Of a stretch of DNA of 64,000 nucleotides, positions 19,759 to 31,299 are shown piece after piece (within the stretch, counting starts at the first letter, position 1; each line of letters opens with the position of its first letter). The position numbers and the translations under genes were made by a program. The stretch is from positions 1 to 64,000 of the forward strand of contig MKWG01000036.1 in assembly GCA_001899685.1 (NCBI GenBank). Direction: 5' to 3'. The notes beneath the pieces were generated by a model. It was not told the origin of the DNA. It did no database searches and saw nothing but the letters and a program-made list of their open reading frames with translations. This DNA comes from Sphingobacteriales bacterium 44-15 (GTDB lineage: Bacteria; Bacteroidota; Bacteroidia; Chitinophagales; Chitinophagaceae).

Positions 19759-20016
19759 TCATTTTTCCGGGGCTTCTTCGTGTAGCGTACAGCCGCCTTC
19801 TTCAAGGCATCTTTTAGGGCGGAAGAACCCTGTCGCAAAAAAGACAGCTCCAAAGAGGATGGCAGGCCAGCCGCCCTGGTCATAGTAATAAATACCGCCA
19901 CCGATAAACAGCATTCCAAATCCCCAGCGGATGATCCGGCTGAACCATACAGCTATTTTGTCCGACTTACTACGCTCCCGGGTAGACAGAACCTCCGTTT
20001 TCAGGGATGAATGCAT
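19759..20016 (-). CDS. Small two-helix membrane protein with C-terminal Cys pair
   Basis: 85 residues from ATG 20016 (MHSSLKTEVLSTRERSKSDK), chosen because AAAGG lies at a fitting distance. Hydrophobic stretches IIRWGFGMLFIGGGIYYY and GGWPAILFGAVFFATGFF form a hairpin, followed by the tail KRCLEEGGCTLHEEAPEK with two cysteines. The start lies one base after the stop of the DUF6132 gene, so it is translationally coupled to it. It is the last gene of the sulfur module. The function is unknown; the cysteines suggest thiol or persulfide chemistry. Confidence 0.75.
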   Translation of the reverse strand: MHSSLKTEVLSTRERSKSDKIAVWFSRIIRWGFGMLFIGGGIYYYDQGGWPAILFGAVFFATGFFRPKRCLEEGGCTLHEEAPEK

Positions 20017-20017
20017 A

Positions 20018-20224
20018 TCACGAGCCTTTTTGTTCACTTTTCTTGAAAATATTAAAAAGCAATATTCCCATCACAGAAAAATATACGATACTGTTACGGG
20101 GATTGGAGGTGATAGGACAGGTACCTGTACTGCAGCCAATAAATTTCCAGTATAGGTATCCCCCCAGCGCACCTACAGCCGCACCTATGATGGGCAATTT
20201 ATTTTTCAGCGTCCACTGTTTCAT
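20018..20224 (-). CDS. DUF6132 family small membrane protein
   Basis: 68 residues from ATG 20224 (MKQWTLKNKLPIIGAAVGAL). Two membrane helices flank the conserved loop FIGCSTGTCPITSNP, the recognisable DUF6132 signature with its C-x4-C pair; the C-terminus is basic. The start overlaps the end of the upstream DUF2892-like gene by 26 bp. In Bacteroidota these genes, as I recall them, occur near rhodanese and metallo-beta-lactamase genes, as here. A role in moving or handling sulfane sulfur at the membrane is plausible but unproven. Confidence 0.85.
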   Translation of the reverse strand: MKQWTLKNKLPIIGAAVGALGGYLYWKFIGCSTGTCPITSNPRNSIVYFSVMGILLFNIFKKSEQKGS

Positions 20225-20438
20225 AAGTGATTTCTTTTTGGCTTCCGGCAGGACCGGAGCGTGGTAAATTTGTACTGCATCCACCGGCGCCACAACACCC
20301 GATATTAAATACTGACATTATCATCAACATTATACCTGCCGCGCCAAGCAAATAATCTTTCATTAATATTGCCTGCCACAACGCTATTATACCCACCAGC
20401 AGCCTCAGAATGCGCATAAAGCTCCAGTTGCTTTTCAT
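20199..20438 (-). CDS. YgaP-like transmembrane protein (DUF2892 type)
   Basis: 79 residues from ATG 20438 (MKSNWSFMRILRLLVGIIAL), chosen because GGAG precedes it by 5 bp; another ATG at 20450 is possible. Two helices (ILRLLVGIIALWQAIL and LLGAAGIMLMIMSVFNIG) are followed by CCGAGGCS, a cysteine cluster. This layout matches the transmembrane part of YgaP-type rhodaneses, which carry a rhodanese domain fused to such a helical pair. Here the rhodanese is a separate upstream gene, so the two may act as a split YgaP. Confidence 0.8.
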   Translation of the reverse strand: MKSNWSFMRILRLLVGIIALWQAILMKDYLLGAAGIMLMIMSVFNIGCCGAGGCSTNLPRSGPAGSQKEITYETVDAEK

Positions 20439-20451
20439 TATTCTCCACATG

Positions 20452-20760
20452 CTATTGAATTTTTTGCTGTAATGCATTCCATGCGCCGCCATTATATACT
20501 TCGATACCTGCTGCTGCCAATACTGATTTTGCAATTCCCGATCTTACGCCACTGCGGCAAACGGTAATGACCGGTTTATTTTTTTTCTTCAATGCAGGGA
20601 TATTTTGCTTTACCTGCTCCAGCGGAATATTGGTAGCGCCCTTAATATGTCCGGATCCGAATTCTCCCTCACTGCGCACGTCCAGTATAATAGCGCCGTT
20701 GCTCACCAGTCCCTTATAATCGGTTGTATTGCCGAATAATTTTTTTAACATGCTAAACAT
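20452..20760 (-). CDS. Single-domain rhodanese
   Basis: 102 residues. The rhodanese domain has the CH2A-like start ILDVRSEGEFGSGHIKGATNIP and an active-site loop CRSGVRS with the nucleophilic cysteine. It transfers sulfane sulfur between donor and thiol acceptors such as glutathione or cyanide. It starts 12 bp after the stop of the MBL-rhodanese gene. A second Met three codons in (MLKKLFGN) could be the true start. It sits between the sulfur dioxygenase-like enzyme and a membrane protein of YgaP type. Confidence 0.9.
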   Translation of the reverse strand: MFSMLKKLFGNTTDYKGLVSNGAIILDVRSEGEFGSGHIKGATNIPLEQVKQNIPALKKKNKPVITVCRSGVRSGIAKSVLAAAGIEVYNGGAWNALQQKIQ

Positions 20761-20772
20761 AACCTGTGATTT

Positions 20773-22191
20773 TTATAACATTGTGGTTGGACAAACATAT
20801 TCGCTTATCTTAAAATTCCCGCTGTCTTTGATGGCTTTAAATCCTCCCTGTATATCCACCAGGTTGTCATATCCTCTTGCCTTGAGCGTTGAATTGAATA
20901 TCATTGATCTGTATCCTCCGGCGCAATGCACGTAATAGGTCTTGTTGCGGTCAAGCATAGGCATATGTTCGTTGATAACATCCAGTGGCATATTCTCAGC
21001 ATTCAGCAGATGCTCGCTGTCATATTCGCTTTTTTTCCGAACGTCGAGTATATTCACGCCTTCTTTTTTCTGGAGGTCGGCAAGCTCATCTGCAGATACA
21101 GATCGGATAGCGTCTGTTTCTTTACCCGCTTTTTTCCATGATGCGAAGCCACCTTTCAGGTAACCTATAGTAAAATCGTATCCCACTCTTGCCAGCCGGG
21201 TGATCACTTCTTCTTCCCTGCCTTCATCGGTTATCAGCAGTATCTCCTGGCGGATGTCGGGGATCATTGCGCCTACCCACGGTGCAAAATTGCCGTCAAT
21301 GCCAATATTGATGGAGTTGGGTATAAATCCTTTTGCAAATACCTGTGCATCCCTGGTGTCGAGGATCAGCGCTCCTGTTTCATTTGCCGCTGCTTCAAAT
21401 GCATCCGGGTCGAAGGCATGCTGCCCGCGTTCCAACACTTTGTCTATGCTTTCATAGCCTTTGATATTCATCATCACATTGAGCGGGAAATAAGAAGGCG
21501 GTGTGGTAAGACCTGTAGTGACTTCCTTAATGAATTCATCTTTGGTCATATCCGGGCGCAATGCATAATTGGTTTGTTTCTGGTGTCCCAGGGTATCAGT
21601 AGTTTCTTTGCTCATGTTTTTGCCGCAGGCGCTCCCTGCGCCATGCGCGGGATATATTACTACATCATCCGGAAGTGTCATGATCTTATTGCGGAGCGAA
21701 TCAAAAAGATGTGCAGCCAGCACATCCTGTGTCAGTTCTGCTTTTACCTTTTGGGCGAGGTCCGGCCGGCCCACATCACCAATAAAGAGCGTGTCGCCGC
21801 TGAACAATGCTACAGGCCTTCCTTTTTCATCCTTGAGCAGATAGCAACTGCTTTCCATAGTGTGTCCCGGTGTGTGGATCACCTGTATCGTAATGTTGCC
21901 GACTTTTAATGCTTCCCCGTCTTTAGCGATATGTGCCTCAAAAGCAGGTTGCGCTTCGGGTCCGTACACAATAGTTGCCCCGGTCTTCTTAGCCAGATCA
22001 AGGTGTCCCGATACAAAGTCGGCATGAAAATGTGTTTCCAGCACGTATTTTATGGTTGCCTTATTGCGTTCTGCCTTTTGAATATAAGGCGCTACTTCAC
22101 GCAGCGGGTCAATCACTACAGCTTCATTACCACTTTGTATATAATAGGCTCCCTGCGCAAGACATCCGGTGTAGATCTGTTCTATAGTCAT
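20773..22191 (-). CDS. Metallo-beta-lactamase / double rhodanese fusion (persulfide dioxygenase-like)
   Basis: 472 residues from ATG 22191 (MTIEQIYTGCLAQGAYYIQS), the conserved start of the family. The N-terminal MBL domain has THFHADFVSGH, HTPGHT, SGDTLFIGDVGRPD and YPAHGAGS, matching ETHE1-type persulfide dioxygenases that oxidise glutathione persulfide to sulfite. Two rhodanese domains follow. The first (near 275-370) has ITDEGREE where the active Cys would lie, so it is probably inactive. The second has the intact VHCAGGYRS loop. The gene belongs to a minus-strand operon and has a CRP-type site 57 bp upstream of its start. Confidence 0.92.
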   Translation of the reverse strand: MTIEQIYTGCLAQGAYYIQSGNEAVVIDPLREVAPYIQKAERNKATIKYVLETHFHADFVSGHLDLAKKTGATIVYGPEAQPAFEAHIAKDGEALKVGNITIQVIHTPGHTMESSCYLLKDEKGRPVALFSGDTLFIGDVGRPDLAQKVKAELTQDVLAAHLFDSLRNKIMTLPDDVVIYPAHGAGSACGKNMSKETTDTLGHQKQTNYALRPDMTKDEFIKEVTTGLTTPPSYFPLNVMMNIKGYESIDKVLERGQHAFDPDAFEAAANETGALILDTRDAQVFAKGFIPNSINIGIDGNFAPWVGAMIPDIRQEILLITDEGREEEVITRLARVGYDFTIGYLKGGFASWKKAGKETDAIRSVSADELADLQKKEGVNILDVRKKSEYDSEHLLNAENMPLDVINEHMPMLDRNKTYYVHCAGGYRSMIFNSTLKARGYDNLVDIQGGFKAIKDSGNFKISEYVCPTTML

Positions 22192-22241
22192 CTTGTTTGG
22201 TTTTTGTAGTGCAAATTTGAGCATAATATCCGGGTTATAAC

Positions 22242-22255
22242 GTGACAATCGTCAC
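22242..22255 (-). promoter_or_regulatory. CRP/FNR-type operator upstream of the MBL-rhodanese gene
   Basis: GTGACAATCGTCAC is a perfect GTGA-N6-TCAC palindrome overlapping the stop codon of the TauE/SafE gene. Its centre is 57 bp upstream of the ATG and 33 bp upstream of a CAAATTTG element (22212-22219) resembling a degenerate -7 box. This fits class II activation by the CRP-like regulator encoded two genes upstream. Confidence 0.7.
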
Positions 22256-23058
22256 GCGCCCCGGAGTATAAGTATTTCTTTAACAATAATGAAAATGCCG
22301 GTCAGTAATACAAACCAGCCGAAAGCTTTTTTTAATCTTCCTGCTTCAATTCTGCGCGATAAAGCGGCTCCGGCAAGTATTCCGGCAACTGCAATAGCTG
22401 TGATTGTCAACAGCTTTCTCCATTCAATACTAAGGTTGCCGATATCGCCGGCAAAACCGATCAGCGAATTAATGGCTATGATAAGCAGCGAAGTGCCTAC
22501 CGCTTCCTTCATTGGAAGTTTTAACGATGTTACCAGTATGGGGATGAGCAGGAAACCTCCCCCCGCCCCAAGCAGGCCTGTTACAAAGCCGATGGCCAGT
22601 CCATACCATAAAAGGTGGAGTACGTGGAGAGTGGTATTATCAGTGTTTTTATGCTGCTTTATTTTACGATGCTTTAACATGCTGAATGCAGCAGCTACCA
22701 TTAGCACGGCAAACAATACCATGGTCAGCATATCGCTGGTAACGGCATAGGTTGCTGTTTCAACAATCACTTTTGGAATAGCGGGAACGACCCATCTGCG
22801 GGTAGCGAAGACTGTAATAAAAGAAGATATCCCGAAAATTAATGCTGTTCTTATATTTACCAATCCGTGCATGTAATTTTTTAATGCGCCTGTAAGACTG
22901 GTAAAGCCCACGATAAAGAGTGAATAAGACGTGGCATACAGCGGCTGCATCCTGAAAAAATATACAAGTACCGGCACCGTAAGAATAGAGCCGCCGCCTC
23001 CCATTAACCCGAGCGACAAGCCAATCAATGCTGCTGCGATATACCCGGCAGTTTCCAT
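22252..23058 (-). CDS. TauE/SafE family sulfite/sulfur-compound exporter
   Basis: 268 residues from ATG 23058 (METAGYIAAALIGLSLGLMG); a start seven codons earlier is possible. Eight or so hydrophobic helices and the glycine-rich repeats GLMGGGGSILTVPVLVY and GLLGAGGGFLLIPILV are the internal repeats of the TauE/SafE (DUF81) family. Members export sulfite, sulfoacetate or other sulfur anions across the inner membrane. Here it could remove sulfite produced by the downstream persulfide dioxygenase. A CRP-type operator lies 55 bp upstream of the start. Confidence 0.9.
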   Translation of the reverse strand: METAGYIAAALIGLSLGLMGGGGSILTVPVLVYFFRMQPLYATSYSLFIVGFTSLTGALKNYMHGLVNIRTALIFGISSFITVFATRRWVVPAIPKVIVETATYAVTSDMLTMVLFAVLMVAAAFSMLKHRKIKQHKNTDNTTLHVLHLLWYGLAIGFVTGLLGAGGGFLLIPILVTSLKLPMKEAVGTSLLIIAINSLIGFAGDIGNLSIEWRKLLTITAIAVAGILAGAALSRRIEAGRLKKAFGWFVLLTGIFIIVKEILILRGA

Positions 23059-23106
23059 GAACGAATTGTTTTCATGCAAAACTGCCTTCTGTTTTTTTCT
23101 CTGGCC

Positions 23107-23120
23107 GTGACAAATATCAC
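23107..23120 (-). promoter_or_regulatory. CRP/FNR-type operator upstream of the TauE/SafE gene
   Basis: GTGACAAATATCAC is a perfect GTGA-N6-TCAC palindrome overlapping the 3' end of the regulator gene. Its centre lies 55 bp upstream of the TauE/SafE start and 33 bp from a minus-strand CAGTTTTG element (23077-23084), the same geometry as the site at 22242-22255. Confidence 0.7.
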
Positions 23121-23770
23121 TCCAGCATATTGCTGTTATTGATCACCTCTATGTAAGACTTATGTAATTTAACTAACCCTTTGTCAGCCAGTTTCTTCAT
23201 CAGGCGGGAAATAACTTCCCTTGAAGAATTGAGCTCCTGTGCGATCTCGGTAAAGGATGCGGTTATCTTATTGCTTTTTAAGCTTTGCTGGTGTTTGCGC
23301 AGGTAAAATACGAGTCGTTCGTCCATATTACGGAACGCGATATGATCAATGGTTTGCAGCAATTCCTCAAAACGGTTGCGGTAAGTTTCTAATACGAAAT
23401 AATACCAGGTTTTATATTTTTTCATCCATTCGTCCATGAGCGAAATGGGAATGGCGATGATCTCCGTATCTGCAGCCGCCCTGGCCATTACCTGGCTGGT
23501 CTCCCGCTTGGTAGCGCATATCATCGAAACGGCACAGGCTTCGCCGGGGTGCAGGTAATACATAAAATACTCATCGCCTTCTTCATCTTCGCGGTACACC
23601 TTTATCAACCCGTCTACCACCAGCACTGTTGACCTGATATTTTGTCCTGTACGCATGATCGTATCACCTTCACTGAAGTGCTGGATAACACCCGCTTCTG
23701 CCAGCTCTGATACCAGTTCGTGCTGGAACTCCGGGAAAAGTGTTTGCAACGTCTGCTGTATATTTTCCAT
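23117..23770 (-). CDS. Crp/Fnr-family transcriptional regulator of the sulfur module
   Basis: 217 residues. The cyclic-nucleotide-binding-like beta roll covers about residues 15-120 (FSEGDTIMRTGQNIRSTVLVVDGLIKVYR), then a dimer helix, then a winged HTH. The recognition helix reads SSREVISR, with Arg184, Glu185 and Arg189 at the positions by which E. coli CRP reads GTGA half-sites. Two matching GTGA-N6-TCAC operators lie at the two downstream promoters. Cys79 and Cys85 in the sensor domain could sense thiol or persulfide state, but this is inference; no FNR-like N-terminal cysteine cluster is present. Confidence 0.9.
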   Translation of the reverse strand: MENIQQTLQTLFPEFQHELVSELAEAGVIQHFSEGDTIMRTGQNIRSTVLVVDGLIKVYREDEEGDEYFMYYLHPGEACAVSMICATKRETSQVMARAAADTEIIAIPISLMDEWMKKYKTWYYFVLETYRNRFEELLQTIDHIAFRNMDERLVFYLRKHQQSLKSNKITASFTEIAQELNSSREVISRLMKKLADKGLVKLHKSYIEVINNSNMLE

Positions 23771-30165: not shown

Positions 30166-31299
30166 TTATTTAAAATGCACTTCAGAACCTTTTTGAACGC
30201 TGGTAATTTTTGCAATAGCATTTAAGTCGCTAAGAAAGTCGTTAAGAGGTAGTTTCTTATCTATAATGCCGGCAAATCGTTTTTTATACAGATCAGGGTT
30301 TTCAACTATCACAGTTACGCCAAACCATCTGTTAAGAACATCTGCTATCTCTGCAATATTCGCTTCGTCCATATAGAATATTCCCTGTTGCCAACTTAGC
30401 ACAGTCCTGGAATTAAAATCATTTTTAGTAAAGTTTTCTCCATCAAAGACAATCTGTTTTCCCCGCTCAAGCGATTGCGTGCTGCCTCCTCCTGTAAAAT
30501 TTACTTTCCCTTCCATCAATGACACCACTGTTTTATCAGGCAGGTATGTGTTTACGTTAAACTCAGTTCCAAGTACAGTAACAGTACTTTCCGGAAGATG
30601 CAGGATAAACGGGCTTTCTTTGTTTTTTGCTATTTTGCAGTACGCTTCCCCATGAATGGTGACTTCTCTCACACTATCGGAAAAATAAAAGGGAAAGCTG
30701 AGTGTAGTTTGAGCATTCATCCAAATTTCAGAACCATCGCTCAGGGTAATTTTATAGTCTTTTCCTGTAGGTACATATATAGTATTTATCCCTGATTCTT
30801 TTTTATCATTAACAGCGAAACTTAAATTATTTCCATCATTGTCGAGCGATATGGCACCCGTTTTAATCATTTCCTTATTATTGGTGAGCTGTATGATTTT
30901 TCCATTGGCAAGCTTCAGTTGCACATTTGCGGTGTTGCTGTTCAAGGAGAGTGTTGCTTTTCCGGGCCTATTGTTAACAGCTAACAAATACCACCCGATA
31001 CAAAATAATCCAATAAATACGGCAGCCATCGCAGCTATTCTTTTCACTACCATGCGTTTATTTCCGGCTTTTCTTTTTAGTTCTGAAGCCAGATCTCTCC
31101 ACTCCGAAGTGTCATCCATTTTTTTAAAGCCGGTTTCCACCATCGATGCGGGCAATTTTGAAATCAACTCTTTATATGCAAGCTCAAATTCCCGATCGCC
31201 TGAAAGCAGATTTTCGAATTCAACAACCTCATCATCAGATAAAGCATGGGTAACCTTACCCAGGAGCAAATGCTGATGATATTCGGACATATTTATCAT
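30166..31299 (-). CDS. FecR-family anti-sigma factor
   Basis: 377 residues; MSEYHQ three codons in is an alternative start. The N-terminal cytoplasmic part (about 1-85) binds the sigma factor, one membrane helix follows (AAMAAVFIGLFCIGWYLLA), then the periplasmic FecR domain with TIYVPTGKDYKITLSDGSEIWMNAQTTLSFP and GEAYCKIAKNKESPFILHLP. A C-terminal DUF4974-like domain (EIADVLNRWFGVTVIVENPD...RFAGIIDKKLPLNDFLSDL) completes the usual Bacteroidota form. It lies downstream of the ECF sigma gene with 44 bp between and is expected to transmit a signal from the SusC STN domain. Confidence 0.95.
   Translation of the reverse strand: MINMSEYHQHLLLGKVTHALSDDEVVEFENLLSGDREFELAYKELISKLPASMVETGFKKMDDTSEWRDLASELKRKAGNKRMVVKRIAAMAAVFIGLFCIGWYLLAVNNRPGKATLSLNSNTANVQLKLANGKIIQLTNNKEMIKTGAISLDNDGNNLSFAVNDKKESGINTIYVPTGKDYKITLSDGSEIWMNAQTTLSFPFYFSDSVREVTIHGEAYCKIAKNKESPFILHLPESTVTVLGTEFNVNTYLPDKTVVSLMEGKVNFTGGGSTQSLERGKQIVFDGENFTKNDFNSRTVLSWQQGIFYMDEANIAEIADVLNRWFGVTVIVENPDLYKKRFAGIIDKKLPLNDFLSDLNAIAKITSVQKGSEVHFK

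Follow-up and report, generated by a model that had tools for sequence, protein, structure and literature searches.

Genes and promoter elements of the module

The window analyzed here, a stretch of 64,000 nucleotides from Sphingobacteriales bacterium 44-15, carries on its minus strand a module with the gene order regulator, TauE/SafE, MBL-rhodanese, rhodanese and three small open reading frames. The regulator (217 aa, 23117..23770) is a member of the Crp/Fnr superfamily, with matches to PF00027 (42.7 bits) and PF13545 (35.6 bits) that both exceed the cut-offs. It is followed by a TauE/SafE-family membrane protein (268 aa, 22252..23058; PF01925, 148.7 bits) and a 472-aa MBL-fold protein that contains two rhodanese stretches (20773..22191; PF00753, 60.7 bits; PF00581, 105 bits). 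As all NCBIfam hits shown for the MBL-rhodanese protein fall below the cut-offs, its assigned activity rests on its domain architecture, which suggests a persulfide-dioxygenase-like enzyme. Judging by gene order, a single-domain rhodanese (20452..20760; PF00581, 56.1 bits) and a small open reading frame without a family (20199-20534) probably belong to the same operon, as probably do two further small open reading frames, one with a profile match to DUF6132 (20018-20293) and one that is YgaP-like and transmembrane (19759-20037; 22.2 bits, under the cut-off of 25.3).

Two GTGA-N6-TCAC palindromes, which have no strand of their own, lie in this module. Operator 1, GTGACAAATATCAC (minus-strand GTGATATTTGTCAC), is located at 23107..23120 with its centre at 23113.5, and operator 2, GTGACAATCGTCAC (minus-strand GTGACGATTGTCAC), at 22242..22255 with its centre at 22248.5. 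Read on the minus strand, the centre of operator 1 is 55 bp from the ATG of the TauE/SafE gene (23058) and the centre of operator 2 is 57 bp from the ATG of the MBL-rhodanese gene (22191). Each operator is accompanied on the minus strand by a -7 element, CAGTTTTG at 23077..23084 for operator 1 and CAAATTTG at 22212..22219 for operator 2; both have a centre-to-centre distance of exactly 33 bp to their operator, were assigned from the offset peak described below, and deviate from TAnnTTTG in the first base alone. A sequence-only reading of this DNA had reported both palindromes, their distances to the start codons and the CAnnTTTG elements one base away from the consensus, and all of these were recovered in the sequence, the distances being counted from the operator centres. 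From the -7 elements and the box position given in PMC9723704, transcription is predicted to start on the minus strand at 23072 for the TauE promoter and at 22207 for the MBL-rhodanese promoter.

Operator 1 includes the stop codon of the regulator gene and operator 2 that of the TauE gene (the TGA of GTGA). A stop codon within the operator was ruled out as a general rule, being found in only 26 of the 111 operator-bearing regulator genes among 166 examined (19 TGA and 7 TAA). The window also holds a third GTGA-N6-TCAC palindrome (GTGACTTCTCTCAC, 30659-30672), which is mismatched to the Y/R pattern used below.

Operator conservation and promoter class

In the 6.0 Mb genome, GTGA-N6-TCAC occurs 75 times versus 47 for the reversed control, and GTGAY-N4-RTCAC 22 times versus 10; the palindrome by itself is therefore not rare. 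When the operator was combined with the -7 box (GTGAYN4RTCAY followed by NANNTTT 21-23 bases on), 3 places were found genome-wide versus 1 for the control, and two of these are the module promoters. Sixteen of the 22 GTGAY sites were read in context: two belong to the module, one lies on contig C41, and each of the other 13 falls inside a stop-to-stop frame of at least 230 codons on one strand. At none of these 13 sites does either strand have TAnnTTTG (up to one mismatch) between +32 and +34, and the remaining 6 of the 22 sites have no NANNTTT at the composite spacing according to the composite pattern scan. The sequence-only reading had called for such a genome-wide scan, and many equal matches at random gene positions were not seen once the -7 box was demanded. 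Chance palindromes were rejected as an explanation from these counts, the composite scan, the conservation in relatives and the control stretches. The site on C41 (5733-5746, locus L193), GTGACGATCGTCAC, is perfectly palindromic; GAGCTTTG lies at offset 34 from it, and an ATG at a distance of 54 bp. By eye, the gene behind it resembles the VOC/glyoxalase type, and the site is a possible third target.

For the analysis of conservation, the best 80 of 146 loci, ranked by likeness to the window regulator, were kept and the window was added; these 80 come mostly from Chitinophagaceae and Bacteroidota. Hits below 45% identity, alignments beginning after residue 12 and starts less than 200 bp from the end of a locus were omitted from the upstream count. 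In this set of the best 80 of 146 loci plus the window, 39 of 40 TauE genes have the strict site GTGAY-N4-RTCAC in the 150 bp upstream, as do 49 of 53 MBL-rhodanese genes (all 53 with one outer base left free) and 12 of 79 regulator genes. Neither of two reversed control patterns had a hit upstream of the TauE, MBL-rhodanese or regulator genes, and size-matched control stretches gave none either (0/186 within genes and 0/93 at 450-600 bp upstream).

Aligning promoters on the operator (102 of 104 sites after removal of duplicates, 90 of which do not precede regulator genes) placed TANNTTTG, with up to one mismatch, at +33 in 71 of 102 promoters, with no other tested offset exceeding 5. Likewise, NANNTTT was found at +33 in 83 of the 90 TauE and MBL-rhodanese promoters and at other offsets in at most 5. 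Over the 102 promoters, positions 9-27 after the operator centre carry no more than about 0.2 bits each, while position 31 and positions 34-37 carry more than 1 bit. Since the operators are kept before the same genes while the spacer to the -7 box diverges, they appear to be under selection.

The presence of operators was also compared with that of the regulator across genomes, using an MBL-rhodanese search in which loci were assigned to 30 of 82 matches in 58 relatives. By hand tally, GTGA-half operators accompany an MBL-rhodanese or TauE gene in 13 of the 16 genomes where a close regulator occurs (E <= 1e-60), as opposed to 2 of the 14 where none does; G013, G017 and G045 have a close regulator and yet no GTGA-half operator at these genes. 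An apparent lack of operators in class-level relatives of family f24 was dropped as a finding, the GTGA-only scan having missed hybrid sites: the upstream DNA of these relatives, when read, was found to hold hybrid GTGAY-N4-GTTAC and GTAAC-N4-RTCAC sites, also at +33. Loci L251-L263 and L297-L308 of this group, which have SREV helices, mostly carry hybrid operators in which one half is GTGA and the other GTAA. G613 and L312 hold a V-type homologue (see below) as well, and both types of regulator might read hybrid operators.

A search of relatives for further targets, allowing two mismatches and reading palindromes on both strands, returned single loci or a few for each target; unlabelled rows of this search include chance hits, and ten representatives were scanned with profiles. 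Sulfur-related proteins among the targets include an SQR-like protein (NF049943, 222.7 bits versus a cut-off of 525), YeeE/YedE-type proteins (PF04143, 58.8 bits) and a CoA-disulfide reductase with a rhodanese (TIGR03385, 475.4 bits versus a cut-off of 578.8). Thioredoxin, peroxiredoxin, OsmC, single rhodanese, YgaP-like and DUF302 proteins were found as well, along with an outer-membrane efflux protein and a protein with a T9SS tail, and the non-sulfur targets belong to this list as real members. A 531-aa protein is encoded behind an operator that ends in TCAT at L128, L132, L134 and L142; the -7 box of this operator is at +33, and the ATG follows its centre by only 41 bp. Of these proteins, that of L128 was scanned and proved to carry a T9SS sorting tail, without any obvious connection to sulfur.

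The sigma-A box TAnnTTTG of F. psychrophilum occupies -12 to -5 (PMC9723704). Because the centre of this box is at -8.5 and the offset is fixed at 33, the operator centre is placed at -41.5 from the predicted starts, where a class II site would replace a -33/-35 element. In E. coli, -41.5 is the position of the CRP operator at class II promoters. Given the spacing of the -33 box from the -7 box, the expected place of a -33 box is the TCAC half-site of the operator. TTG was found at +2 to +8 in none of 90 promoters, at +9 in 2 and at +11 in 3. The class II geometry claimed by the sequence-only reading is thus borne out by the offset of 33 and the operator centre at -41.5, and the -33 box that the regulator is proposed to replace is indeed missing, an absence partly forced by the operator, whose half-site takes its place. 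Among 83 promoters, the -7 box begins with G in 41, with C in 34, and with A or T in 4 each, and a weak -7 box together with an activator site at -41.5 would best be read as activator dependence. From this geometry, activation would be expected rather than repression.

Recognition helix and operator sequence

The recognition helix of the regulator, S182-S-R-E185-V-I-S-R189, is encoded at 23204..23227 on the minus strand; Glu185 takes the place of Glu181 of CRP and covaries with the operator. CRP mutants of this residue with altered specificity are known. According to PMC11253593, the cytosine of the fourth TGTGA pair is the base that Glu181 of CRP touches. Many more distant regulators that adjoin the same genes have Val at this place. 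With the operator defined so as to be blind to the covarying base (RTnAY-N4-RTnAY plus the -7 box), the 147 genes linked to SRE regulators included 104 with GTGA/GTGA, 27 with hybrid, 0 with GTAA/GTAA and 16 with no operators. The 16 genes linked to SRV regulators included 8 with GTAA/GTAA, 1 with GTGA/GTGA, 1 with another and 6 with no operator, and the 14 linked to the ARV/ARA clade included 1 GTAA/GTAA, 2 A/T, 1 GTGA/GTGA and 10 with none.

The same relationship was examined downstream of 160 regulator genes by taking whichever operator came first in the 300 bp after each, with one regulator retained per identical C-terminus and those with less than 60 bp after the stop or an unrecognizable helix dropped. 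The downstream operator has a GTGA half for all 91 SRE regulators that have one, and has none for 14 of 15 V-type regulators, the latter in keeping with the NtcA-type site code (GTA-N8-TAC). This covariation of helix and operator gives a Fisher P of 1.4e-16, a value that ignores relatedness. No fitting operator was found within 300 bp downstream of 54 of the 160 regulators (33 of 124 SRE and 21 of 36 SRV/ARV/ARA). In a tree of 71 of 147 regulators (45 of 121 SRE, 16 of 16 SRV and 10 of 10 ARV/ARA), 3 label changes are needed, and V requires at least 2. L087, a V type, falls within the E side; the E types L277 and L292 fall near the V/ARV side, although the E-type row of L277 is a long branch whose placement is unsure. 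At L277 the two types share a locus, with GTTACTTTTGTTAC after the V regulator and GTGACATTTGTCAC after the E regulator; L292 (E) has GTGACTTATATCAC downstream, and in G045, the genome of L087 (V), GTAACATTAGTAAC precedes the MBL-rhodanese gene.

Predictions of operator from helix that were noted in advance were correct in 4 of 5 genomes and failed in G597; the four correct ones are to be taken as modest support, since Val is commoner among distant homologues. Exceptions among the V-type regulators are L280 and L325, with hybrid downstream operators that have one GTGA half, and L275, with a GTGA/GTGA operator at the MBL-rhodanese gene. At the level of genomes, contradictions were seen in G573, which has an SREVISR regulator but, at an MBL-rhodanese gene not linked to it, a GTAAC operator, and in G014 and G026, where MBL-rhodanese genes have GTGA operators and only ARVV homologues were found. 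Despite these exceptions, the adjacent regulator proposed by the sequence-only reading holds up as the likely reader of the operators, as its helix residue covaries with the base that Glu181 of CRP contacts.

A second close homologue is encoded in the same genome on contig C7 and has the helix SRVVISR. About 1.2 kb from this V-type paralogue, an operator GTAACTAAAGTTAC (C7:190585-190598; locus L321, reverse index ~6909) sits between divergent thioredoxin-like and heme-protein-like genes (named by eye) and has a -7 box on each strand, one at +33 and the other at +32. The GTAAC composite pattern occurs at 4 places in the genome versus 1 for the control, and two of these are GTAACTAAAGTTAC counted on both strands.

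Regulator cysteines, likely signal and alternative readings

By its profiles and its structural model, the regulator has a cNMP-binding-like domain, a Crp-type HTH and a CRP fold, as expected of the CRP/FNR superfamily. The predicted fold (mean pLDDT 86.2) has 4ev0 as its top PDB match (TM 0.73). The sole cysteines of the window regulator are Cys79 (codon 23534..23536, minus strand), which aligns with Ile70 of CRP, and Cys85 (23516..23518, minus strand), which aligns with Phe76; both are invariant in 41 aligned regulators, an alignment that excludes L131. The pair is found in 80 of 81 regulators, 72 of which have no other cysteine, and thus provides the conserved candidate cysteines expected of a persulfide-sensing regulator. 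L131 is the lone regulator of the 81 without the second cysteine (CALSMIA). The SRV clade has an extra cysteine right after the second one, and the ARV clade has one cysteine in the region. In the model, C79 and C85 bracket the start of helix 80-88, a part of low confidence (mean pLDDT of about 55 for residues 81-90). The N-terminal cysteine cluster and further cysteine of FNR (4Fe-4S) are not present in the window regulator.

Glu72 and Arg82 of CRP are cAMP contacts. In the alignment, these two residues correspond to V81 and T91 of the window regulator, and among the 80 relatives with the cysteine pair the Glu72 place is Leu, Ile, Val or Met in all 80 and the Arg82 place is Arg in 2. The window regulator therefore does not look like a cAMP-dependent CRP, and "CRP-type" should not be understood as implying dependence on cAMP, as the residues that contact it are gone. 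The target genes and the thiols of the cassette point to sulfane sulfur as the likely signal; that persulfide or polysulfide switches the regulator through Cys79, and through Cys85 where it is present, is a proposal we consider evenly balanced.

Known systems resemble parts of this arrangement. The window regulator shares with E. coli CRP the superfamily, the fold, the R-E-x-x-x-R helix, the GTGA-N6-TCAC operator and the operator centre at -41.5, but differs from it in V/T at E72/R82 and a cysteine pair in the cAMP cassette; its promoters, unlike those of CRP, have a TAnnTTTG-type -7 box, and the genome has only 3 composite promoters. NtcA of cyanobacteria, which senses 2-oxoglutarate, resembles the V-type relatives in having Val at the Glu181 place by alignment, and its site GTA-N8-TAC is one that we take to be equivalent to the GTAAC-N4-GTTAC found beside these relatives. 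The window regulator differs from NtcA in its Glu and GTGA operators, with 22-24% identity in the fold match. The Crp/Fnr-family structure 3dv8 from Eubacterium rectale is the best PDB sequence match (E 1.9e-18) and has Cys at both positions of the pair, but is only about 24% identical to the window regulator. The persulfide sensors CstR, BigR, SqrR and FisR have other folds (CsoR, ArsR and sigma-54 activator); they resemble the present case in the likely thiol control of persulfide-dioxygenase, rhodanese and transporter genes. A1S_1182, a Crp-like protein of Acinetobacter baumannii, is reported in PMC7315123 to be highly persulfidated in sulfide-treated cells, with a Cys opposite the ligand pocket; unlike the window regulator, it is closely related to E. 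coli CRP (50%) and is not linked there to an operator of persulfide genes. The literature searched, mostly outside subscription papers, yielded no account of persulfide genes in Bacteroidota being controlled by a Crp/Fnr regulator; the accessible part of PMC12531629 yielded no passage on Bacteroidota, E181 or persulfide, and that of PMC9774590 names Crp in its references alone. A Crp/Fnr activator is a known kind of system, and it is the gene set and the likely signal that are new.

The explanation that we favor is that a dedicated Crp/Fnr-family activator would control genes for the handling of sulfide and persulfide. A dimer of the regulator would bind each operator, centred at -41.5, and would recruit RNA polymerase in class II fashion, and this recruitment would compensate for the missing -33 box and the weak -7 box. 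A further and less certain step is that sulfane sulfur would switch the regulator through a reaction with Cys79, and with Cys85 in proteins that have it, inside what was once the phosphate-binding cassette for cAMP. Operator, adjacent regulator and class II activation, taken jointly, form a reading that we regard as quite probable. More tentative, and in our estimate slightly short of evenly balanced, is the full proposal of a Crp/Fnr-fold sulfane-sulfur sensor in which Cys-x5-Cys replaces cAMP, which governs a class II persulfide regulon of Bacteroidota and whose paralogues, including one in the same genome, are kept apart by a code of one residue and one base (Glu-GTGA/Val-GTAA) that may have switched more than once.

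Three alternatives were weighed against this explanation. With regulator, operators and class II activation unchanged, the thiols could instead sense oxidants, nitrosative stress or general disulfide stress; paired thiols react with many species, and peroxiredoxin, thioredoxin and OsmC genes are among those behind similar promoters in relatives. We consider this distinctly less likely than sulfane sulfur, since the most conserved targets are the sulfur genes MBL-rhodanese and TauE, and rhodanese, SQR-like, CoA-disulfide-reductase-rhodanese and YeeE/YedE-type targets are found in relatives. The exact class II position, along with a -7 box whose first base is off consensus in 79 of 83 promoters, which would leave the promoter weak even when free, makes it improbable that the regulator is a repressor whose dimer at -41.5 blocks polymerase until released by reactive sulfur, as with repressors of the CstR/BigR type, even though the known persulfide sensors in the literature searched are often repressors and the operator fills the -33 region.

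It could also be that a different Crp/Fnr paralogue reads the operators and that the adjacent regulator is a mere neighbor. The genome offers 18-20 first-look candidates, two of them at E <= 1e-20, GTGA-N6-TCAC is a general CRP-type palindrome, and no SRE regulator was found to go with the GTGA operators of G014 and G026. This reading appears very improbable given the covariation of helix and operator across linked loci, the tally of GTGA-half operators in relatives with and without a close regulator (13/16 versus 2/14), and the SRVVISR helix and nearby GTAAC operator of the other close homologue in the same genome.

To the extent that sequence is able to probe them, both the observation and the inference of the sequence-only reading stand, and the relatives make the case much stronger than the window by itself could. 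Beyond the original observation, the activator reading now includes conservation within and outside the family, the exact class II offset and the Glu/Val-G/A code with its exceptions, as well as a wider set of sulfur genes and a thiol pair at the old cAMP site. If it is true, another fold would join the persulfide sensors, and a natural set of class II promoters would be available for the sigma factor that recognizes TAnnTTTG. The base contact of Glu181 in CRP would have been rewired in nature, with the operator following, and the Bacteroidota would gain a dedicated activator of the sulfide response.
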